Part shown: positions 33,044 to 45,384 of the stretch, in pieces | Position numbering within the stretch: the stretch's first letter is position 1 | Layout: each line of letters opens with the position of its first letter | NCBI RefSeq assembly: GCF_000210295.1 | Contig: NC_026743.1 | Coordinates: 2,294,001-2,358,000, forward strand | Source: Trypanosoma brucei gambiense DAL972 | Lineage: Eukaryota; Euglenozoa; Kinetoplastea; Trypanosomatida; Trypanosomatidae | Direction: 5' to 3' | Length of the DNA: 64,000 bases | Translations under genes and position numbers: made by a program | The notes under the pieces: model-generated | Databases searched by the model: none | The model's input: the letters and a program-made list of their open reading frames with translations, nothing else | What the model was told of the DNA's origin: nothing

Positions 33044-36000
33044 ATGGACGAAGAAACCACATTTCCACCTCAACAACAAGGGAAAGCGCTGATCTCAGAG
33101 CTACGGAGTGTAGTTAACGACTACAGAAATAGGAAAACCGTGGAGGCTCGCGAAAAAATTATAGCAGCGATGGACAACACTTGTGCCTCTCTCTGCTTTG
33201 GTGATGAGGGGTTCATCCGCAACTTGAACCCTTGCAGTTTGGCGTCTGCTTTAGTTGCTGTCCTAACAAGTACTCTCGCAACTGATTACCCGGAGGTCCA
33301 ATGCCTCGCGGTGCAGGCGCTGGCACTTGTGGCAGATCTTGTGCCACGAGGTGGTTTTGCTGTTGTAGCTGCAAGGGGTGTACAACCACTCCTGCTCCTC
33401 CTAAAGGAGCTGGATGCGTCAGAAAGCACGACACTGGAGGAGTTGTTGAGGTGTTTGACAAATCTCGCTTTTGAGGCTCACGAGCAGTTAATGCAACACC
33501 AGGCATTTTCTGTTATTGTTTCCATTGAAAGGCGATTGGAAACTCATCGACTGCGTATGATGTGCCTCAAGTGTCTGTCACATCTTCTCACATTGACCTC
33601 ACCGGAAGAATGGAACATATATCTGTCCAAGCCGTGTAGCTCGTTGATGGCAACATTTCATGAGGCGGTGACAAGACTTATGAAAGATGATTGTGCAGGT
33701 GATCGTCTGTCAAAAGACGACGAGGCTTATCTGCTGCGACTCCTCGAGTGTGTTGCGTTAACGTTTGATAGGGTGCTGTGTTCGGCGAAAATGATCGACA
33801 GGAACAGCAGGATGGTAGAGCAGCTTGTTTCGTCTCTCGTAGTGGTTATTAATGGAGCTGCTTCCATGGGTTCGCGCGGCACCGCCCTGCGTAATGCTGC
33901 GTGTTCGCCCCTTCTTACCCTTCTGTTCACAGACCCGGCTGTTACAGTGAGGATATTTCTTAAATGCCACGTGTTAGATTCTATATACAGTAACATTTCT
34001 GGGCTACTCGAAAAGAGGCCGAAACAGGCTTCTTACAATGGCGCAGCCGTGATCTCTGCTCTCATGGAAGAGGATCTGACGGCCGTGCCGAGCGTAGCTG
34101 AGGAACAAAAGGTCATTCCCCTGCTAGAGTTTCTTCTAGTAGTTATGCCACCCTCATGCACTGCAAGTGATTGCGATTATTACACCACCTTACCACACTA
34201 TATTTGGCAGTGGGAAGATGACTTTCATAACTGGTGTGACTGCACCGAAGACTTAAGCAAACGACTAGAGGGGGAGTACATAAAACAGCGGCGACTCTCA
34301 GGATACACAGTTTTTGAAGTTTCTAATGCAACATCTACACTGAAGATTAACTTTTCTACCATGCGATACAGAAGCAGCGAAAGCCTGCACTACCCTCACA
34401 ACATTAGCCGTCGTCCCTCTATTGCCGGATATATTTACCGGCGACCCATACGATGCCAGTGCGACGTTAAAGTTACACCGAACTCTTCATTGCCCGTCGA
34501 GGTGGCGTTGGGCAGGTTGGTTTCTCTCGGGGCAGGCACCACGACGGTTCTCGACGGTGAACCCGCCGTGGTGTCGGCCGGGGTACCGACGGGAAATGCG
34601 CATAGCAACGAACAATCTTATTGTGAAAGTGCATCCTATAGTTTTGGCAACATCGCTGCTCCCTCGTCTTCGAACCAACCTTCAAGGGGTCACGGGGCTC
34701 ATAATGGTGGTGTTGTGGAGGAGCGTGGGAGCCATTGCTGTTGTGTCAGCGTTTTGAGGTCACTGTTTCGTAAGTTGAAGGGTTCAGGACGTTCAACCGC
34801 AGTTCCCGAGGCCGGAAAATACGGTGCAGGGTCAGCGCTTACATCCTACGAAGTACTCGACGATGCTAGAGTGGAGCTTCTGCGCTGTGCTGCAACTCGT
34901 TCCAATTTCTTGCAGGAGCGGATGATCTACAGAATAATCCAACAGTATCTTCCAATTCTTATGCGTGTTGTGGATAGCACAGCCAATCTTATCATCGTAC
35001 GCCACTGTTCAGTACTGATTTTGCGCTGCGTTGACTTGGTGATAGGTTACTTCCGCTCAGGTGGGAGGGACCAGGGTCAACCTACCAGGACTCTCTGGGG
35101 CTTGTTTTGTGCCTTGGGCCCAAGTCTTGCGACGTCATTGTCCTATCTGACAACTTCCAGCACGACTCACGGATCGCTGACGCTATCGGCAGCACCCTTC
35201 AGGGAATTCCGGTGCGGTAGTGCGTTTGTGCTCGCGTTGTCAGCTTTAGACGTGACAGTTGGAACCCGGTTACCAGCAATGAATCTTGCTTGTGAAACTC
35301 AGCTGACCTCATTGAGTGCCCTGATGATGCTTTGCAGCCTCTGCCCCATAGGCGTGAAGGCGCTGACGAAGCAGCAGTCGCTCGCGTTATTGTGGAAACT
35401 GGAAAGGATTACTGGTCCCACTGAACGCAGTTCACAAGGTGGCGTCCACCTGTTGCTTGAAGGACATAGAGTCCCGCCGTGTCCCTTTCACACGAAGGCA
35501 CTGCAAATTGAGGAACTGCGCAGAACGCTGGTTCAGCAGCTTTGTTCGTTACTGTGGACAAATGCAAGGGCGGTAGATCAAATGTTGCCCTTCAAAAAAT
35601 GTTGTTTGGACATATCCGGAGACGATCAACAGGATAGTCAGCTTGGGGATTCCGTCGCCATGGGTTCACCTGAGGGGAGTGTGTCACCGAGTGCCAGTTG
35701 CACGAGCCTCACGTATATTTCTTCCAGTGGCGATCTGGACGGTGACACACCGCGTTCTCGCAGCACTCAGGTGATTAAACGTTTAACACGGATCAATGAG
35801 TACATGAAAGAGCACAGTAATGATCTCCCCGTGTTCTTGTATGATCAGCCGGAGCTGCTGAAGGATCTCGCTAGTGCTTTGCGCAGTGCTGATGTAAGGG
35901 AGGTGATTGGTTCAAAGATGAATGAGGTCTTTTCCCAACTGATAAAGAGTTTGCTCCGCACCATCTGCAAGTACACGGGAATTGGCAGACTAGAGGAACC

Positions 36001-38650
36001 CCGCGCCGTAGAGCGTCAGTATTCGCGGTTTCAACGCCGTACCCGACGCAACAGGACTATGTTGATGGTGGTTGACTACCTGTGGACGCCTCTTCGGGTG
36101 AATCTTGTTAATACCCCTGTTCAAGCAGGTAAGAAGAGGAGTTTGTCTAAATTCTTTCGCTTGCAGAAAGACTCCACCAATGCGGCTGATGCGGGCTCAC
36201 CAAATGCTCAGGTGAGGGAATCAGTGTTAAGTGTACTCCCAACGACTCCATTGAGTTACATTGCAAAGTATATTATAATGCGGTTAAATGAAGCTTGCAA
36301 CAACACGTGTGACCCCAAATCAGAGGACGCGCAGCAGCAGCGGCAGCAAGAATTAGCTGAGGAAAGTAATTTCGGGGCGACGTTAGCCCACCAGGAGGCA
36401 GCCGACACTCCAGTTGGTGTCAATGGCGGCGTTGGTGAAGAAACTGCACTGGCAGGCAACGTGATAAGTTTTTTAAACCGCAGAGAGTCTAGGTTGTCGG
36501 ATGCTTCGGATGCCGACGACGAGGAAAGCGTGACTTCTGGTGATGCATCTGAGTTTTCGGAAGGCCGCGACGGGGATTACTTAAGTGAACATGTTCTCAG
36601 CACCGTGTCGGCAACCGTTTCTATGGTGCCTCAAGCGCCCTCAAATATTTGCAGTGGGCCTTTAGGTGGACTGAGGGCCTCACAAGTTGAAGGTAGCACT
36701 TCCACCACAATTACCATCGACAATGTTGTCTTCTTCTGCGGGGGCAAGCCCGTAACAGACTTAAGCATATCCGTTTTAGACCTTTGTGGGAGTTCCTATT
36801 GTCAAGCTTCTGGTTGGTCCGATCTCCACCAGAGTGATTCCGACGAGAATTGCGGTGATAATGCACCTGTACGACACACTAGTGGTGAACGACTTCACTA
36901 CTTGATGAAAAATGTGCTTTCACTGTGGTCATCTGTACATACAATTAACTATTCCATTGTAGGAATGCGTGCCAATGAAGAGCGACGCGGTACAGATGGC
37001 GAAGAGGTGTTGGATATGAATGAAAATTCCCCGGTCGAAGTTTTTTCTCGTTTGTCGTACTCCCCCAGAGGAACGCCATTTTTGTGGGCCGCGGCGGACC
37101 TTCTGAATGAAATGGGCCAGTTAGTGCGTGCTGCAGGTGGTGCTCTCTCCATGGATGATCCACTGGTGTCGAGCGCTTTGTTCCATGAATTCTACAATCA
37201 CTTTGGTGTGTTGATGTTGCCCGCACTCGCGTATGGTATTATCCACGCCTACCTGGCGGATCAGCAGGACCGTTATCTCATTAGCTCCGTCCTTTGGAAG
37301 TATCCACAAACTTTCAGCTACGAAATTAGGCGGACACTGCTGCATTTGCTACTTTCAGTCCGACGTATACACACGCCAGCAATAGTTAAGTTGAAAGAAT
37401 GGGCGTCAGGCTCAAGTCCCATACCCCCTGTCCAGGGTTTAGAATGGCTACGGCCCGATTTGAACATGCGTGGAACTTACAGGGTTCGAGTGCAGAGGTT
37501 TAACATTTTTGAGAGTGGCGCACGTGTGCTTCGTCGTCATGCAATGTGTCCACTTACGCTAAGTGTGGAGTTTGAGAATGAGCTTGGTGTTGGGGCGGGA
37601 CCTGCAGTGGAGTTCTATAATTTATTGGCGAGGAAGTTTCAAGACGTGCAACTTCACATGTGGCGCACAGAGGAATTCACCGATGAATCTGCTAAAACCG
37701 CGCGGCGCGTTCAACTCCCACTGTTCCCTTCACTATTTCAGGATGACGAATCGCTTTCCAATTTTGAGCTCCTCGGGATGTTAGTAGGACGGGTGCTAAT
37801 GGAGGAACGTGTGGTGGACCTTCCGCTGAGTGAGTGCTTTCTTCGTGGCATTCTAGGAGACTTGGATGACACTAACCGGCTGCCATATATCGATCCCCAA
37901 CTCGATAAGCAGCTGGATTCATTGCTTAAACTCACGGCCAATGAACTAGAGGAATGCGAACTAATGTTCGTAATTCAGCACGGGGACGCGGAGCACAACG
38001 GAGGTATTGTAGAACTCTGCCCTAACGGGGCCACAACTCAGGTTTCTGCTATGAATGTCAATGAGTATGTTCAGGAGGTGCGGCGGTACTATTCGAAGAC
38101 GGCCCTCGCACGGCCCGTCTCGCATTTCATCCAGGGACTCCGGTATACACTTATTCCTTACCATCTGCGACTCTTTGATGCCAGAGAGCTCCAGCTTGTC
38201 ATATCGGGACCCGAAGGGAAGATATGGGAAAGTGCAGGAGACCTTCTGACCGTCATTACAACTAACCACGGTTATGACAAAAACTCCCTGGTTGTGGCTT
38301 ATTTTGTGGAAGTGGTTAGCAGCTGGGATGTTTCTCTACAGCGGTCCTTCCTGCGCTTTGTGACGGGCTCCACTCGCATTCCCATAGGAGGACTGCGACC
38401 CCCCATAACAGTGGTACGTCGTTCGGTGGAGGTGGCTCCCGGAGAGGCCACAAACCAGTTGGATACTACAAACAACTTTCTGATGGACGATCGAGTTGAG
38501 GTGTTACAAAACCTAATGGACGCCTCACTTCCTACCGTGAACACATGTGCGCACTACCTTAAACTTCCAAACTATAGTTCAAAGAAAATACTGGAGGAGA
38601 GGCTGAAATTGGCCATAACAGAGGGACAGGGTACATTCTCGCTAACGTAG
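33044..38650 (+). CDS. HECT E3 ubiquitin ligase, TRIP12/UFD4/UPL3-like
   Basis: The 1868-residue protein begins with Leu-rich armadillo-like helices (~30-330), as TRIP12, yeast Ufd4 and plant UPL3 do. A long middle part of helical and Ser/Gly-rich segments follows. The HECT domain occupies about residues 1500-1868. Typical HECT blocks are visible: LSVEFENELGVGAGPAVEFY, LLGMLVGRVLMEERVVDLPL, and the C-lobe TGSTRIPIGG and NTCAHYLKLPNYSS with the catalytic thioester Cys1835. The protein ends five residues after a GQGTF block, as TRIP12 does. The enzyme accepts ubiquitin from an E2 and passes it to substrates; TRIP12/Ufd4 act in the ubiquitin-fusion degradation and N-degron routes. The substrate in this organism is unknown. 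The start follows an acceptor near 32929 with no earlier ATG. Confidence 0.92.
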   Translation: MDEETTFPPQQQGKALISELRSVVNDYRNRKTVEAREKIIAAMDNTCASLCFGDEGFIRNLNPCSLASALVAVLTSTLATDYPEVQCLAVQALALVADLVPRGGFAVVAARGVQPLLLLLKELDASESTTLEELLRCLTNLAFEAHEQLMQHQAFSVIVSIERRLETHRLRMMCLKCLSHLLTLTSPEEWNIYLSKPCSSLMATFHEAVTRLMKDDCAGDRLSKDDEAYLLRLLECVALTFDRVLCSAKMIDRNSRMVEQLVSSLVVVINGAASMGSRGTALRNAACSPLLTLLFTDPAVTVRIFLKCHVLDSIYSNISGLLEKRPKQASYNGAAVISALMEEDLTAVPSVAEEQKVIPLLEFLLVVMPPSCTASDCDYYTTLPHYIWQWEDDFHNWCDCTEDLSKRLEGEYIKQRRLSGYTVFEVSNATSTLKINFSTMRYRSSESLHYPHNISRRPSIAGYIYRRPIRCQCDVKVTPNSSLPVEVALGRLVSLGAGTTTVLDGEPAVVSAGVPTGNAHSNEQSYCESASYSFGNIAAPSSSNQPSRGHGAHNGGVVEERGSHCCCVSVLRSLFRKLKGSGRSTAVPEAGKYGAGSALTSYEVLDDARVELLRCAATRSNFLQERMIYRIIQQYLPILMRVVDSTANLIIVRHCSVLILRCVDLVIGYFRSGGRDQGQPTRTLWGLFCALGPSLATSLSYLTTSSTTHGSLTLSAAPFREFRCGSAFVLALSALDVTVGTRLPAMNLACETQLTSLSALMMLCSLCPIGVKALTKQQSLALLWKLERITGPTERSSQGGVHLLLEGHRVPPCPFHTKALQIEELRRTLVQQLCSLLWTNARAVDQMLPFKKCCLDISGDDQQDSQLGDSVAMGSPEGSVSPSASCTSLTYISSSGDLDGDTPRSRSTQVIKRLTRINEYMKEHSNDLPVFLYDQPELLKDLASALRSADVREVIGSKMNEVFSQLIKSLLRTICKYTGIGRLEEPRAVERQYSRFQRRTRRNRTMLMVVDYLWTPLRVNLVNTPVQAGKKRSLSKFFRLQKDSTNAADAGSPNAQVRESVLSVLPTTPLSYIAKYIIMRLNEACNNTCDPKSEDAQQQRQQELAEESNFGATLAHQEAADTPVGVNGGVGEETALAGNVISFLNRRESRLSDASDADDEESVTSGDASEFSEGRDGDYLSEHVLSTVSATVSMVPQAPSNICSGPLGGLRASQVEGSTSTTITIDNVVFFCGGKPVTDLSISVLDLCGSSYCQASGWSDLHQSDSDENCGDNAPVRHTSGERLHYLMKNVLSLWSSVHTINYSIVGMRANEERRGTDGEEVLDMNENSPVEVFSRLSYSPRGTPFLWAAADLLNEMGQLVRAAGGALSMDDPLVSSALFHEFYNHFGVLMLPALAYGIIHAYLADQQDRYLISSVLWKYPQTFSYEIRRTLLHLLLSVRRIHTPAIVKLKEWASGSSPIPPVQGLEWLRPDLNMRGTYRVRVQRFNIFESGARVLRRHAMCPLTLSVEFENELGVGAGPAVEFYNLLARKFQDVQLHMWRTEEFTDESAKTARRVQLPLFPSLFQDDESLSNFELLGMLVGRVLMEERVVDLPLSECFLRGILGDLDDTNRLPYIDPQLDKQLDSLLKLTANELEECELMFVIQHGDAEHNGGIVELCPNGATTQVSAMNVNEYVQEVRRYYSKTALARPVSHFIQGLRYTLIPYHLRLFDARELQLVISGPEGKIWESAGDLLTVITTNHGYDKNSLVVAYFVEVVSSWDVSLQRSFLRFVTGSTRIPIGGLRPPITVVRRSVEVAPGEATNQLDTTNNFLMDDRVEVLQNLMDASLPTVNTCAHYLKLPNYSSKKILEERLKLAITEGQGTFSLT

Positions 38651-39058
38651 CAGGTATATGTATATGTGGGCGTGTAGTCGTCCGCGAGGACAAACTACAG
38701 AAAGTTGGTATGGTGCATTATAGCTAATGTGGGGTGGAGTGAGTGCGAGTGCGATCAGCTGGAGGGACAGGAAAAGTAAGAATGAGGAAGAATACAAGTA
38801 TGGGAGCATGTGTATCAACTTATTGGGGTGATGTGTTGTTGTCATAGTGCCGTTATTTGTTTTGGTTTCGATTGGGATATGTATGTGACACATCATTTGG
38901 GAAACCGCACGTGAAACTGTGATTTCATCTCCAATTTTTTTTTTCTGGACATCACTATTCAGCGCGTGAGCGTCATCCCGCTCCCGCCACTGTCCTTTCT
39001 CTCTCCCTCTTTGTTTCTTCACAGCCGTTTCTGTCAATTAGCTCCCAGCGGTACGTCG

Positions 39059-39190
39059 ATGGTGTGTTATTTACTCTCCATGGCTTCCTTTGTGATTAAC
39101 ACAATCACCAGAAATGCTTTGTTTTTGTCTTTGGTCCGACGTTGGTGGGAGATGGAAGGGAACGTTGGCGCCATGACCTCTGCTACTTAA
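39059..39190 (+). CDS. Candidate 43-residue small protein
   Basis: A near-ideal acceptor (pyrimidine tract about 38993-39022, AG 39023-39024) is followed by a 34-base leader and a first ATG opening 43 codons. The product has a hydrophobic first half (MVCYLLSMASFVINTI), a basic-aromatic middle (VRRWWEMEG) and a short polar end. The hydrophobic residues are not from a homopolymer tract. It may be a mini-gene, or the acceptor may be unused. No homologue is recognised. Confidence 0.28.
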   Translation: MVCYLLSMASFVINTITRNALFLSLVRRWWEMEGNVGAMTSAT

Positions 39191-39949
39191 ATAGTATTGT
39201 TTTCCTTTTTTTTTCCTCCTTTTGTGTGTGTGTGCATGTATGTATGTGTTTTCTTTGCCAGATTGTATTATTCATGTGTAGGAGTGAAGATAATGCGGGT
39301 ATTGTGTTATACCAGCTACCCGCTACAGGATGTGCGAAAAGTAAGTGAATGGAGCGAGTAGCGGTGAGGATTGTTGTGCCGAGTTTGAGCTTTTTATTAT
39401 TGTTATTATTATTATTATTAACTCTGTGAGAACTCACCCCTTTTCCTCCCTCGGGTTAACGTAAAGAGGAGAGAGGCAACCAGCAACCCGCAGTGTCGTG
39501 GGATGTGAAGTTTGAGAAGTGAATTGAAGGGGAAAGATACAAGGCCCTCAACTCCCGTTCGCTGAGCAGAACAAAGCATGGAAGATACAACACCTCCATA
39601 AGGTTATTTCGATGCTAAACCTATTGTTTCTGTTGTGTTGGATTCGAAGTTTAGCAACTTTGAGTAGTACCAATGAATGAGTTCAGACTTTTCATCTTGT
39701 AATTGTTGTCGCTCGTTTTAATGATGTTGTTTAGTGCAACTCTTCACAAGGTGGTGGAGGTTGAAAGGTGATCGTGTAAAAATGGTAACAGTGCCCAAAT
39801 TCTCAATTGTGTATGAATGTAGGTTGTGTTCTGTCGATGTGAATCAGCTGCCAGCAAACGGAAACGTGGTGTATTCCAAGGGTTAGAGCAGTCTGGAAAA
39901 AAAAAATCAAAAAAAAAAGAAGAACGTTGGTGTGTCTTCAACTATATGT

Positions 39950-39989
39950 AAATAAATAAATAAATAAATATATATATATATATATATAT
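39950..39989. repeat. AAAT repeat running into an (AT)n repeat
   Basis: About five AAAT units are followed by about eleven AT units in the large spacer. No coding role is apparent. Confidence 0.9.
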
Positions 39990-40412
39990 GCATGTGTGTT
40001 TATGTGCAAACTTGTACCTACAGGTGCATGCACACACAAACATATGTGCGACATTTGCACATTGTTTAGCGGTAGAGGGGATGGAGAAGAGAAGAAATGC
40101 AAGAAAAGAAAAAGATAAAAAGAGAAAAGCACAAATAGAAACAAGTAATTAATAAAAAGAAAACGGCGATACTACACTTTGTGCCCATTCACTGTTGTTG
40201 GATTTGCTTTGAAGTGACGAAGGCAATTGGTGCGTGAAGTCCCCTTTGGTCTTGAGATGACTGCTCTCACCCACAAGATCTGTTTTTTTTTCTTCTTACT
40301 CTCTCCTTCTTATTTCCCTTTTTTCTCTTTGCTTTCTTCGGGTAATCTCGTTTTTTTTTCCTTTTTTTCTTCTTTGTTGGAAAAAACAAATCACGGAAAC
40401 GAAGTCAACGGC

Positions 40413-40431
40413 ATTAATAATAATAATAATA

Positions 40432-40460
<29 letters not shown>
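40413..40460. repeat. AAT/ATT palindrome followed by (AT)n
   Basis: About seven TAA-type triplets are directly followed by about five TTA-type triplets, forming a perfect inverted repeat that can fold back, then about ten AT units. It lies in the large spacer, just after a long pyrimidine tract. Confidence 0.9.
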
Positions 40461-40462
<2 letters not shown>

Positions 40463-41441
40463 TAAAAAGAATCACCTCGTGTAGTATTTCCATCCTCTTT
40501 TTCTTCTTATTTTACGAAATATTTGGTGGGTTCTGAGTTTGGAAGGAAGTGATATCAGTGACTGGTTTGTTCCCTTCTGTCCTTTTTTTTATTTTCTGTC
40601 TTTTGTTTTTTTTTTCCTTCGTCGACTATTATGTTGTCTGGAAAAGGAGTGACGAAGCGCGGAAGCATGCGATAGGACGAGGGACTTTCGGTAATCTGTT
40701 TTTTTTTTTTCAATCACCTGCTGTTGCTCCCTGTTATTCGACGATGGAGCAGGGAAAGTTGCGTAGGTTTGTGTCTGTAGGGAAAAAAAGTTGTGATAAA
40801 TTCGGTTGATAGATTTCTCCTTCATTCCGCGCGGTAGTTAACAACAATAAAAAAAATTTCTACTCCTTGGGCTTTGACGCCTCAATACTTGCGCTTCTAT
40901 CTTGTATAACCACCTGTACGCGCTGTTCAATTAAAGGAAAAAAAATGGTGGTGGTGGTATTTGTTTCTCTTTCTATTTCTTTTTCCCCCTCCACTCCCTC
41001 CCTCTTTTCAGCTGCTGCACCATCTGTTGGAGTACAATAAAAGGTGAGAGTAAACACCTTCCCTTGTTTTTTTTTTTCTGAGCATTCCGCGTGTTCCTAC
41101 ATTTGTGGTTATATATATGTACGTGCACAATGATGGTAAGATGGTTGTGCTGTTCCTTAAAGAAGGGAGGTGTCTCCACACAAATTGCTTCTTATGTAAT
41201 GTTTTTAGCTGTTATTCCCCTTGTTGATGTGCTACGCATTCTGGAGTCTTTATATATCTTCGTGTTTTGTGCTATTTGCTAATGTGTAACATCTATGTTT
41301 GCTACATCCTCTTCTGTATAAATAGTCTGGTTTCATTAGTCACAGTTTCCTCATTGAAGGGAGAGAGAGAGGCACTTGCAGGAGGAAGAGATAGTGACTC
41401 AGGGATTGTGTTTTTTGAAGGTGGAATAAAGTGCTAGGAAG

Positions 41442-42497
41442 ATGCTGCTCACAAAACTTGCGCCCATGAGGTCTGCAGCACGTCACATGCCGTTACTGTG
41501 CATCCCACTTCATACCGCTCGTCACACTGCCACTGTGGGTGCGAGCGGCGCCTCTGGGCGTGTAGGGGAGGACCACCGCCACAGTTCATTGGAAGGGACT
41601 TTACTTCATCCTCCTTTCATTGGTTCGTCTTCACGCTTCACGTATGCCTTACCTGCTTTAGACTCCGATGATATAGCGGCTTTGGAGAGGGAAACACTTA
41701 ACCATCACGAACCAAACTGCTGGAACGACTACTGCTGTGTCTCCCTCGTGAAACTGCTCCGCTGGTGTGCCGATAAGTTATTCCGTGAGCGTTACATTCA
41801 CAGGGCTACAATGTTGAAAGCGATTGCGCCTGCACCGGCGATGGCTGGGGCCATCGTTGCCAACCTGCGGATGTATTTGAGGAAAAAGGACGCGACATAT
41901 TTGCCAAGTCACGGCAACTTTTCGTCAGAGGTTCGAGTGCTAATGGCGCAGATGGAGTCCCACGCCGCACATGTCAATATCCTCTTGTCAATGTGCGAGA
42001 TAACGACCGTTGAGCGCGTCGCCGCCGTTCTTCTTTATGGGCTTCATTATTTCATATTTACCCTTCTATTCTTCCTGTATCCGCGAATGGCGTTTCGGCT
42101 TATGGGTTACCTTAACGAGGAATCCGTAGTTATTTGGACGCACATGATAAACGACGTAGAGTTGGGGAAGATTGTTGAGCGACCAATACCTCGTGCGGCG
42201 CTTCAGTACTGGGGACTTCATCGTTTCCACCACCGCCAGAAACAACAATCTCATACAAAGAGCTATGTCACAGAAAAAGAGGAAGAGGGTAGGAGGGTCA
42301 TGCATAACAATGAAGCCTCCTATGCCAACCCCAGCGGTGACGGTGCCGCAGAGAATGGAGGGGAGGATGGAGATGTGTCGAAGCGTGGACTTACGCTGCG
42401 TTATATGCTGCTGTTATTGCGCTCGGATGAGATGGTCTGGCGCGACTCATGCCACGCGGCTGCGGACGCTATAGACGAAATGCACGAGGTGCAATAA
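41442..42497 (+). CDS. Alternative-oxidase-like protein lacking most di-iron ligands (putative pseudoenzyme)
   Basis: The 351-residue protein has a basic, Ser/Ala-rich N-terminus typical of a mitochondrial presequence. From residue ~120 it follows the alternative oxidase (AOX) fold block by block: HRATMLKAIAPAPAM (AOX: a Glu-containing first helix), MESHAAHVN (AOX: ENERMH), a hydrophobic stretch ~199-218, RLMGYLNEES (AOX: GYLEEEA) and LLLLRSDEMVWRD (AOX: RADExxHR). By eye-alignment to the six ligands known in the trypanosome AOX, Glu123 is replaced by Lys126, Glu162 by His174, Glu213 by Asn225 and His269 by Trp333. Only His177 and Glu330 remain, and the active-site Tyr220 is Trp231. It can hardly bind two irons or reduce oxygen. 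A structural or regulatory mitochondrial membrane role is inferred. A polar insertion lies at ~265-305. Confidence 0.7.
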   Translation: MLLTKLAPMRSAARHMPLLCIPLHTARHTATVGASGASGRVGEDHRHSSLEGTLLHPPFIGSSSRFTYALPALDSDDIAALERETLNHHEPNCWNDYCCVSLVKLLRWCADKLFRERYIHRATMLKAIAPAPAMAGAIVANLRMYLRKKDATYLPSHGNFSSEVRVLMAQMESHAAHVNILLSMCEITTVERVAAVLLYGLHYFIFTLLFFLYPRMAFRLMGYLNEESVVIWTHMINDVELGKIVERPIPRAALQYWGLHRFHHRQKQQSHTKSYVTEKEEEGRRVMHNNEASYANPSGDGAAENGGEDGDVSKRGLTLRYMLLLLRSDEMVWRDSCHAAADAIDEMHEVQ

Positions 42498-43029: not shown

Positions 43030-45384
43030 ATGACGACCCACTTGTGGGCAAATTTTGTTACATCCCTGGAGTCCCGTGGCATCTCATTTCAGCACGTGCA
43101 ACACGCATCTGACCGGAGTGCCGTAATTTCAGCGGCAGGCTTTGGGGACCCCATTAGCGTTGCTATTTTGGAGACGGAATGGATGAAGCGTTGTGCACCC
43201 ACCAGCACCCAACATGCCTCACCCGTGGGCGTATCCGACAAGGGCGCATTTGCCCCTCCACCTCCTCTCCAAGCGCCACAGACTGCTGCAGCAACCGTGA
43301 GCAGTCCCACAAGGCTCGCCCCCCAGTTTTCTGACCACACGAAACTGGAAGACGTTCCCGAGGAAATTCAGGATCGTGTCATCACAGCGGAGGTACTAGC
43401 CGCAGCCGTCGGCAACGGTGGCTCGCTTTTGCAGGCATCACGGGACGGTTTCGTGGTATCGAGATATGTGCCCGTTTCGATGCGCGGCCTCTGCAAGACC
43501 ATAGTTCCCATCGCAGACTCTTTCGTAGCGCTACGGAAAGTTGAACGTGCAGAGTATATGGGAAAGAGCCTTGTTGCTATGGCTCTGGGTGAAGCGGTAT
43601 CAGAAATTTGCACCAGTTACGCACACGAGATTGCAAACCTGCAGAGGTGGTCCCAAAAGAAAGCAATGCCGCTGATGGGGGTCGTCTCAGAAGTTCTTCG
43701 TGCCGGCCACCACATCGTGCGGTTGCGGCAGGTACTGCCCACAGATTCAATTCTGGAGGAAGAAGGAACACTCTCCATGGCTGGGTGGCGGTTGCTCAAC
43801 CACATCCATGAGCAGGCTGAAAAACATTCGGGAAGCAGGGAGGACGATGAATTGCTGAACTTGTTACTTAGACGAGCATCAGTACCATACCTGCGGGTGT
43901 TGCACAGGTGGGTGCACGAGGGAGTAGTTGAGGACCCGTACGGAGAGTTTTTCATATCAGACGCATCCCTCCCCACTGGAGCAGCATCCACTGCCACCGC
44001 AGCACCAGTTTCTGCTGTGGCAGGTATGAAAAAGAGTGCAGTGAGGCGCATATTTCCCCCGTGTGGCGGAGGAGGCGACGATTACGGCGAGACAGGGATG
44101 GATGATGCGCATGCCTTTGAACGGCGCTTCTCGATGAATAAGAACATGGTTCCTAATTTTATTCTCACAAACACAAAGATGGCGAAGATAGTGTTCTATA
44201 CCGGCAAATACTGCTGCCTGCTGCGGGAGTACAACGGCGCTCTCCCATCGTTCGGGGAATTATCGAACCAAATACTTATATGGTCTGGTGTTGACGAGTT
44301 GCATCGGCGTATAGAGGAGTCATATGAAATTGCGAGTGGAGAGGTGTTACAGTTGTTTCTGGGACCGCAGGTCGATCTTTTGGGGCACCTTACATCGTTG
44401 AAGAGTTATTTCTTGCACCAACGTAGTGACTGGCTGATCGATTTTTTAGACAGTGCTGAGGAACTTCTCCTGAAGTCACCTTTTCAGGTGAAGGCGCATT
44501 CCGTTCGCGTGTTACTCCAAGCAGCAATCGCTAGGTGCTGTGGGAAAGACTTGTACCATACTCTCATTGGATGCAGCTTCTCGGGCACAACTGTTGCACA
44601 AGACATTATCAACTCACACGAACGGCAGAACGACGAGTCCCCTCAACGCGCATCCACAAACGGCAGGAGGAGCGCCACGCGTATTGAGACACGTTGTTGT
44701 ATAGAGCTGCTTCAACTTGAGGCTGACCTAAAATGGCCACTCACAATGGTCATTGACCCCCCTGTTCTTGAGCAGTTCAACATCGTCTTCCGTCTTTTCA
44801 CGTGGCTGAAAACCTGCGAACGGGACGTTACCACGTCGTGGACGGGGGATACCGATTTGGATCCTCACTACCAGCGTGCATATATCATTAAGCATCAACT
44901 CATTCAGTTCATCAGGCAATTTCAGTTCTATGCAGCACATTTCGTTGTGGAGCCGCTTTGGGGTCGGATGATGAATCGGATATGCCAGGCTGATAGCATT
45001 TTCGCCGTAAATAGTGCATTGAAAGATTTCTTCAAGGGTATCGAGCTTGGTCTGGTGCTTTCTAGCGCCACTCGTTTCCGTAGTCTCGCACGTATTCTGG
45101 AGATAGCCTCCGTTTTCAGTGAAACAGGGAGACCAGGTGCGGCCCAGGGGCTTAGCGAGCAACGGCTGCAGGAAATATTACAGGATGTGGAAACGCAGTT
45201 CCTTAAAGCTCTTTCCGAGCTCGCTTCCCCTGTGGGAGCCGACTATCCACAACTTGTGCCGCTTTTGACGTGGATTGACTTCAGCGGCTATTACGACCGC
45301 AACGGAGTGTACCGCGTGCTGTACTCCGCAAGTGCCGCTACCGAACCGGTGTCTTCCTCAGCCACGGACAGGCGAAAGCGTTGA
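43030..45384 (+). CDS. GCP2: Gamma-tubulin complex component 2 (GCP2/Spc97)
   Basis: The 784-residue protein carries both GCP (gamma-ring protein) domains. The N-terminal one includes helices around FVALRKVERAEYMGKSL and the block ASVPYLRVLHRWVHEGVVEDPYGEFF (~285-310). The DPY-EF form and the following GKYCCLLRE block with SLKSYFLHQRSDWLIDFLD (~450-475) agree with GCP2 rather than GCP3. The C-terminal domain has FRLFTWLKTCERDV and the HQLIQFIRQFQFYAAHFVVEPLW block that contacts gamma-tubulin. The first ~115 residues are variable and Pro/Ala-rich. With gamma-tubulin and GCP3 it should form the small complex that nucleates microtubules at basal bodies and the spindle. It is somewhat shorter than human GCP2 (~900 residues). 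Confidence 0.9.
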   Translation: MTTHLWANFVTSLESRGISFQHVQHASDRSAVISAAGFGDPISVAILETEWMKRCAPTSTQHASPVGVSDKGAFAPPPPLQAPQTAAATVSSPTRLAPQFSDHTKLEDVPEEIQDRVITAEVLAAAVGNGGSLLQASRDGFVVSRYVPVSMRGLCKTIVPIADSFVALRKVERAEYMGKSLVAMALGEAVSEICTSYAHEIANLQRWSQKKAMPLMGVVSEVLRAGHHIVRLRQVLPTDSILEEEGTLSMAGWRLLNHIHEQAEKHSGSREDDELLNLLLRRASVPYLRVLHRWVHEGVVEDPYGEFFISDASLPTGAASTATAAPVSAVAGMKKSAVRRIFPPCGGGGDDYGETGMDDAHAFERRFSMNKNMVPNFILTNTKMAKIVFYTGKYCCLLREYNGALPSFGELSNQILIWSGVDELHRRIEESYEIASGEVLQLFLGPQVDLLGHLTSLKSYFLHQRSDWLIDFLDSAEELLLKSPFQVKAHSVRVLLQAAIARCCGKDLYHTLIGCSFSGTTVAQDIINSHERQNDESPQRASTNGRRSATRIETRCCIELLQLEADLKWPLTMVIDPPVLEQFNIVFRLFTWLKTCERDVTTSWTGDTDLDPHYQRAYIIKHQLIQFIRQFQFYAAHFVVEPLWGRMMNRICQADSIFAVNSALKDFFKGIELGLVLSSATRFRSLARILEIASVFSETGRPGAAQGLSEQRLQEILQDVETQFLKALSELASPVGADYPQLVPLLTWIDFSGYYDRNGVYRVLYSASAATEPVSSSATDRRKR

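Follow-up and report, generated by a model that had tools for sequence, protein, structure and literature searches.

The best described relative of the protein considered here is the trypanosome alternative oxidase (TAO), a four-helix-bundle protein known in print as Tb927.10.7090 (PDB accession number 3VV9). Its di-iron centre is held by E123, E162, E213, E266, H165, and H269 (PMC9246349); R96, D100, and E215 are proposed to form a proton-transfer network (PMC6204527), and R118 and L122 are residues of the inhibitor/quinol pocket (PMC7904559). Mutation of any single ligand is reported to be extremely detrimental, and the T219V mutant lost its function almost completely (PMC6213860). In wild and domesticated wheat, 'AOX-like' isoforms of the alternative oxidase (AOX) are described in which some of the six ligands are missing; there a motif is absent outright, the dimer-interface residues are mostly kept, and a non-oxidase role was considered by the authors (PMC6075773, PMC6213860). 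A precedent for function after ligand loss is the class Ie ribonucleotide reductase R2, a ferritin-like di-metal protein with three otherwise strictly conserved metal-site residues replaced (PMC11846895). The present study concerns a gene of Trypanosoma brucei gambiense DAL972 located at 41442..42497 of a 64,000-nucleotide stretch of contig NC_026743.1 (positions 2,294,001 to 2,358,000), which is referred to as the window. Its product (P0001) is an AOX paralogue that, as judged from its residues, no longer carries the di-iron centre. We read it, with a probability of about 0.5, as a member of a trypanosomatid-wide lineage of AOX-fold pseudo-oxidases that have lost the di-iron centre and the homodimer interface, keep the pocket in part, and would respond to or handle quinones.

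The frame of P0001 lies where the first-pass annotation placed it and is intact, with zero internal stops. P0001 matches the Pfam AOX family PF01786 with 187.9 bits (cut-off 22.7), and the same profile matches all 28 members of the paralogue family (21 named entries and 7 unnamed environmental sequences) at E ≤0.001. A phmmer search of the PDB sequences gave three significant matches, all of them TAO (E = 4.4e-11 to 7.3e-11), and one other entry at E 1.3; no PDB chain other than TAO was matched at E <1 by either P0001 or the family profile. In NCBIfam, P0001 and another member (P0138) had no match, and a third (P0147) had two weak matches below the cut-off. Sequence identity between P0001 and TAO is 24% over residues 80-261. 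AlphaFold models were predicted for the T. brucei and L. major proteins, the first from an input alignment with 5 canonical rows among 33 and the second with no canonical rows. The structural comparison suggested in the first-pass annotation placed both models with TAO only, since each gave 14 Foldseek matches at E ≤0.001 and all of them were TAO. The target-normalised template-modelling score was 0.68-0.72 for the T. brucei model (root mean square deviation = 9.7-11.1 Å) and 0.55-0.59 for the L. major model (4.1-6.8 Å), the superpositions by Foldseek being looser than those by VIA-align. A chance resemblance to AOX is ruled out by the Pfam, phmmer, and fold searches of the two models. These matches and predicted structures show P0001 to be a member of the AOX protein family with an AOX fold. 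Of the 65 columns with almost no variation in canonical AOX, 24 keep their residue in at least 25 of the 28 paralogues, and 74 of 216 core columns have one residue in at least 27 of the 28.

The metal site was compared in a MAFFT alignment of 149 rows, i.e., the 28 paralogues and 121 canonical sequences (TAO and 120 listed of its 7019 matches, many of which carry no species name); P0002, which is nearly identical to P0001, is represented by P0001 in all counts. The ligands are intact in all canonical rows except one fragment (P0058), which has gaps at three of them. The equivalents of E123, E162, E213, E266, H165, and H269 in P0001 are K126, H174, N225, E330, H177, and W333, respectively, so that four of the six are changed and only H177 and E330 are kept. 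H165 and E266 are likewise kept in 28/28 paralogues, and the same four ligands are lost in 28/28. The position of E123 is occupied by V15/K10/L2/T1, that of E162 by H27/A1, that of E213 by A17/G8/N2/Y1, and that of H269 by F13/W9/Y6, which is aromatic throughout. Around the site, Tyr220 is replaced by Trp in 28/28 (W232 in P0001), Thr219 by V19/I9 (I231), and His206 by F27/Y1 (F218). An alignment of each member to a hidden Markov model (HMM) of canonical sequences only gave equal residue counts except for uncovered rows; at position 162, it gave His in 23, Ala in 1, and 4 of the 28 uncovered. An alignment error at the ligands is ruled out by the agreement of the two alignments apart from these rows. 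The most divergent paralogue (P0149, 703 aa) has Ala at position 174, so the His-x-x-His motif is not absolutely fixed, and Tyr at the position of E213. The six ligand columns taken together show ordinary conservation, as 42% of random sets are as low.

The four changed ligands had been named in the first-pass annotation, and both alignments confirm them and extend the dismantled centre to the whole family, where it is under constraint. The replacement of the active-site Tyr by Trp was also recognized correctly, but it lies at position 232, not 231, which is the Ile that stands for Thr219; the other residue numbers were right. Since ligand mutations are so harmful to the oxidase and T219V nearly abolishes its function, ordinary AOX chemistry in the paralogue is very unlikely from its residues, and on the same grounds it should not be called an oxidase but an AOX-family member. 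The earlier term 'non-catalytic' can be kept for the known di-iron chemistry only, for which it follows from the residues; other chemistry at H174, H177, and E330 may still take place.

The main rival explanation is that the centre was rebuilt, with H174, H177, and E330 as a mononuclear metal site of two His and one carboxylate and with Trp232 in place of the active-site Tyr, for other redox chemistry or metal sensing. We consider this unlikely, although H174 is present in 27/28 and H177, E330, and W232 in 28/28 each, the ligand E162 was turned into His and not into an arbitrary residue, and the invariant His residues H120 and H202 (28/28 each) occupy positions that line the cavity in the TAO list. 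On the other hand, the divergent P0149 has Ala at 174, the three putative ligands are just marginally tighter than random core sets (5.1% as low), and K126 of the Trypanosoma rows may substitute for a metal by pairing with E330. A conversion in which these three residues hold a single metal by the invariant Trp, next to the retained quinone-head pocket, would make the protein a redox enzyme or sensor of an undescribed kind, mononuclear and quinone-coupled, on the AOX fold; this sequence-based proposal is rather improbable.

Several residues of the proton network and the pocket are preserved. The equivalents of R96, D100, E215, R118, and L122 are kept in 28, 27, 28, 28, and 28 of the 28 sequences. 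The conservation of position sets was compared with that of random core sets within the family. For the 12 substrate-/inhibitor-binding positions listed in PMC6204527, equal conservation is reached by 1.4% of random core sets; without the five ligands among them, the value for the 7 positions left is 0.6%, and with E215 and Y220 added (9 in all), it is 0.07%. The 16 scored dimer-interface positions, in contrast, are more variable than expected by chance (0.3% of random sets as variable). Constraint thus acts on the pocket but not on the AOX dimer interface. The ubiquinone binding considered in the first-pass annotation is in part consistent with the sequences, as R107, D111, R121, L125, and E227 are conserved, while other pocket residues are changed.

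These observations would fit a lineage of trypanosomatid AOX proteins that lost the di-iron centre and the homodimer interface and kept the AOX fold with part of the pocket for the quinol head. The paralogue would reside at the mitochondrial inner membrane and would be unable to use ubiquinol for O2 reduction in the manner of AOX. The retained pocket may hold but not oxidise ubiquinone, ubiquinol, or a similar prenylated molecule, and the protein may thereby act as a quinone-responsive or quinone-handling membrane protein. Several points weigh against this reading. The analyst chose which positions to drop from or add to the sets, the fractions are uncorrected, and the 28 rows are worth approximately 5 independent ones at 70% identity. 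Of the 9 tight positions, A216, T219, and Y220 are substituted in 28/28 and L212 is kept in just 12/28, and the 32 scored cavity positions are no tighter than random ones (19.5% as low). The conserved Arg, Asp, and Glu residues could serve folding alone.

At the dimer interface, none of the six residues H138, L142, R143, R163, L166, and Q187 is kept in P0001; Q187 is kept in 25/28 members and the other five in 3 or fewer. The loops are longer than those of TAO: the segment from TAO 248 to 256, which has 9 residues in TAO, has 46 to 158 in all 28 paralogues, and the loop that joins the helices on which positions 126 and 174 lie has 23 to 103 residues, compared with 15. The spacing from D111 to R121 is 8 residues below that from D100 to R118. 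The family-specific insert before the last helix is likely to form a partner-binding surface. The acid-free, basic N-terminus makes the mitochondrial presequence proposed in the first-pass annotation plausible, although not proven. In Phytomonas serpens, mass spectrometry detected the orthologue in blue-native slices of mitochondrial protein that showed NADH dehydrogenase activity; the slices also yielded canonical AOX, nine ATP synthase subunits, and one 2-oxoglutarate dehydrogenase component (passages of PMC8312217). These data support a mitochondrial protein and say little on its partners. In T. brucei, the mRNA of the paralogue is found in the table of increased mRNAs of a study on a heat-shock zinc-finger protein (PMC3616968).

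The gel data and the long family-specific loops would also suit a subunit with a purely structural role in a larger complex of the mitochondrial membrane, with the AOX fold around an empty pocket. This is improbable, because the P. serpens slices are mixed, which makes the co-migration weak, TAO is the sole PDB chain matched at E <1, and some pocket positions are tighter than the core average. The first-pass annotation also considered an AOX partner, and a heterodimer partner or regulator of TAO would share its family and fold and was found in the same P. serpens gel analysis. Such a role is very doubtful, as all six interface residues are replaced in P0001 and for most named carriers of the paralogue no canonical AOX is among the TAO matches listed, as described below.

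The named carriers are nine Trypanosoma (including P0001 and T. cruzi marinkellei), seven Leishmania, Porcisia, Novymonas, two Leptomonas, and Angomonas. No non-trypanosomatid member was named among the 7992 scored candidates sharing most words, which does not show that bodonids and euglenids lack it. Among the best 120 of the 7019 TAO matches, many of them unnamed, a canonical AOX was found for 3 of the 21 named carriers (T. brucei, T. congolense, and Angomonas deanei), and the other 18 have none under their own name. T. cruzi and Leishmania are stated to be without TAO homologues and activity in passages of PMC12153322, and L. seymouri is described as lacking the alternative oxidase (PMC4552786); the paralogue is present in all three nonetheless. 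Because these organisms are said to lack AOX, the paralogue presumably works there without TAO. If the paralogue were still active as a terminal quinol oxidase, with a metal site of an unusual kind, and thus the AOX hidden in Leishmania and T. cruzi, this would explain why the equivalents of R96, D100, and E215 are kept, but it is most improbable given the uniform loss of four ligands, Tyr220, and Thr219 and the stated absence of the activity in these organisms.

A tree was calculated from the 28 paralogues and 39 of the 121 canonical rows, the latter being the best TAO matches, after ten ligand and pocket columns had been removed. A branch with a support of 100 in the Shimodaira-Hasegawa-like approximate likelihood ratio test (SH-aLRT) separates the 28 paralogues from the canonical rows, and TAO clusters with the AOX of Phytomonas and Angomonas (SH-aLRT 98). 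The tree is a quick, unrooted one with SH-aLRT as its only support, stems of approximately 3 changes per column, and a long branch for P0149, and it does not place the split within AOX. A recent duplication in T. brucei is ruled out, as the 28 paralogues branch apart from the 39 canonical rows. Between T. brucei and T. congolense, the core identity is 75% for the paralogue and 89% for TAO, i.e., the paralogue changes faster. Faster change is what a decaying pseudogene or an annotation artefact would display, but this explanation is hardly credible in view of the intact frame, the family-wide conservation of core columns, and the reported mRNA of T. brucei and protein of P. serpens. In passages of PMC7828693, the alternative oxidase is given as single-copy in Trypanosoma, Phytomonas, and Angomonas and as six copies in Vickermania ingenoplastis; these passages are silent on the paralogue, which our searches detected in Trypanosoma and Angomonas. 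Blastocrithidia nonstop is reported to be without an alternative oxidase and without genes for ubiquinone-ring synthesis (PMC10874023), and if the paralogue is also absent from it, this could tie the paralogue to the quinone.

The paralogue thus shares with TAO the Pfam family, the four-helix-bundle fold, the helix order, the equivalents of R96, D100, R118, L122, and E215, and the ligands H165 and E266, whereas E123, E162, E213, H269, Y220, T219, H206, and the dimer interface are replaced and long loops are added. It resembles the wheat isoforms in its missing ligands, but its motifs are present in substituted form and the family spans the trypanosomatids. The class Ie R2 protein is not known to be related to the paralogue beyond the general fold class. 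R2 works through a radical with its R1 partner, neither of which is known for the paralogue. COQ7 (human COQ7:COQ9, 7ssp_E) matches the paralogue far more weakly than TAO does, at the level of ferritins, and P0001 has no Pfam match to the COQ7 family.

A search of the genome (22.1 Mb, 11 contigs) with the Pfam AOX profile gave two loci, both on the same contig (C10). The second (L002, C10:1718414) is a 329-residue open reading frame (ORF) of canonical TAO, which over the 82% covered shows 100% identity with P0016, the T. brucei AOX record. The published T. brucei AOX genes are also two, Tb927.10.7090 and Tb927.10.9760 (passages of PMC8312217, PMC5737535, and PMC3616968); since the other locus is canonical TAO, the P0001 gene is by elimination most likely the orthologue of Tb927.10.9760. 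The features are collected in Table 1. A Pfam scan of 16 of the 25 other ORFs of at least 150 aa in the window gave no neighbourhood clue to function. The 2.8 kb between the upstream HECT-ligase ORF and the paralogue (38651-41441) hold only short ATG ORFs (≤84 aa), with simple-repeat translations near 40400.

Table 1. Positions of the paralogue gene, its sites, and the nearest long ORFs in the window (aa, amino acids; pLDDT, predicted local distance difference test)
Feature	Position	Strand	Remarks
ORF of the AOX-family paralogue (P0001), 351 aa	41442..42497	+	ORF check and Pfam; one of two AOX-family loci in the genome
Probable mitochondrial presequence, residues 1-35	41442..41546	+	4 R/K, 0 D/E, low pLDDT; putative
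R107 to D111 (TAO R96 and D100)	41760..41774	+	proposed proton-transfer pair; kept in 28/28 and 27/28
K126 at ligand E123, with H120, R121, and L125	41799..41819	+	H120, new invariant His (28/28); R121 = TAO R118; L125 = TAO L122
H174-x-x-H177	41961..41972	+	ligand E162 replaced by His (27/28); ligand H165 kept (28/28)
N225 at ligand E213, with E227, S228, I231, and W232	42114..42137	+	E227 = TAO E215; S228 for A216; I231 for T219; W232 for Y220
Hydrophilic insert before the last helix (approximately residues 261-317)	42222..42392	+	mostly low-confidence in the model
E330 (ligand E266, kept) and W333 (at ligand H269)	42429..42440	+	alignment
HECT-domain ubiquitin ligase	33044-38650		nearest long ORF upstream; Pfam; no evident link to respiration
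Gamma-tubulin complex component	43030-45384		nearest long ORF downstream; Pfam; no evident link to respiration

In public records, the paralogue is named 'alternative oxidase' in Leishmania, T. cruzi, and Leptomonas. The dismantled centre settles the conflict between such records and the papers on Leishmania, T. cruzi, and L. seymouri, as an AOX-shaped protein was kept there and the enzyme was not. Five members (P0004, P0006, P0007, P0008, and P0010, from T. cruzi marinkellei, rangeli, conorhini, theileri, and grayi, respectively) are recorded as 'GTPase activating protein of Rab-like GTPase', a propagated misannotation since their sole Pfam match at E 0.001 is AOX. Passages of PMC5015846 give 'the trypanosome alternative oxidase protein' the mRNA identifier of the paralogue, Tb927.10.9760, and so seem to mix two genes. 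Table 1 of PMC5737535 sets both T. brucei AOX genes against the single T. theileri gene Tth.8.1700; our homologue searches found only the paralogue in T. theileri (P0008), and the low 'alternative oxidase' mRNA reported for this species may be that of the pseudo-oxidase. No description of the paralogue family was found in the literature searched, which did not cover subscription papers and supplements. Annotation of the gene as an alternative oxidase goes back a long way. The apparent novelty is that all members examined are pseudo-oxidases by their residues and that they explain the 'AOX' entries of organisms reported to be without one.

The paralogue is very unlikely to be the respiratory enzyme of its database label, and it probably serves another purpose in the mitochondrial membrane. 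Expression studies may have confused the TAO and paralogue genes. The family is relevant to how selective the AOX inhibitors under study against African trypanosomes are, and it provides a testable example of the roles left to the AOX fold once the irons are gone.
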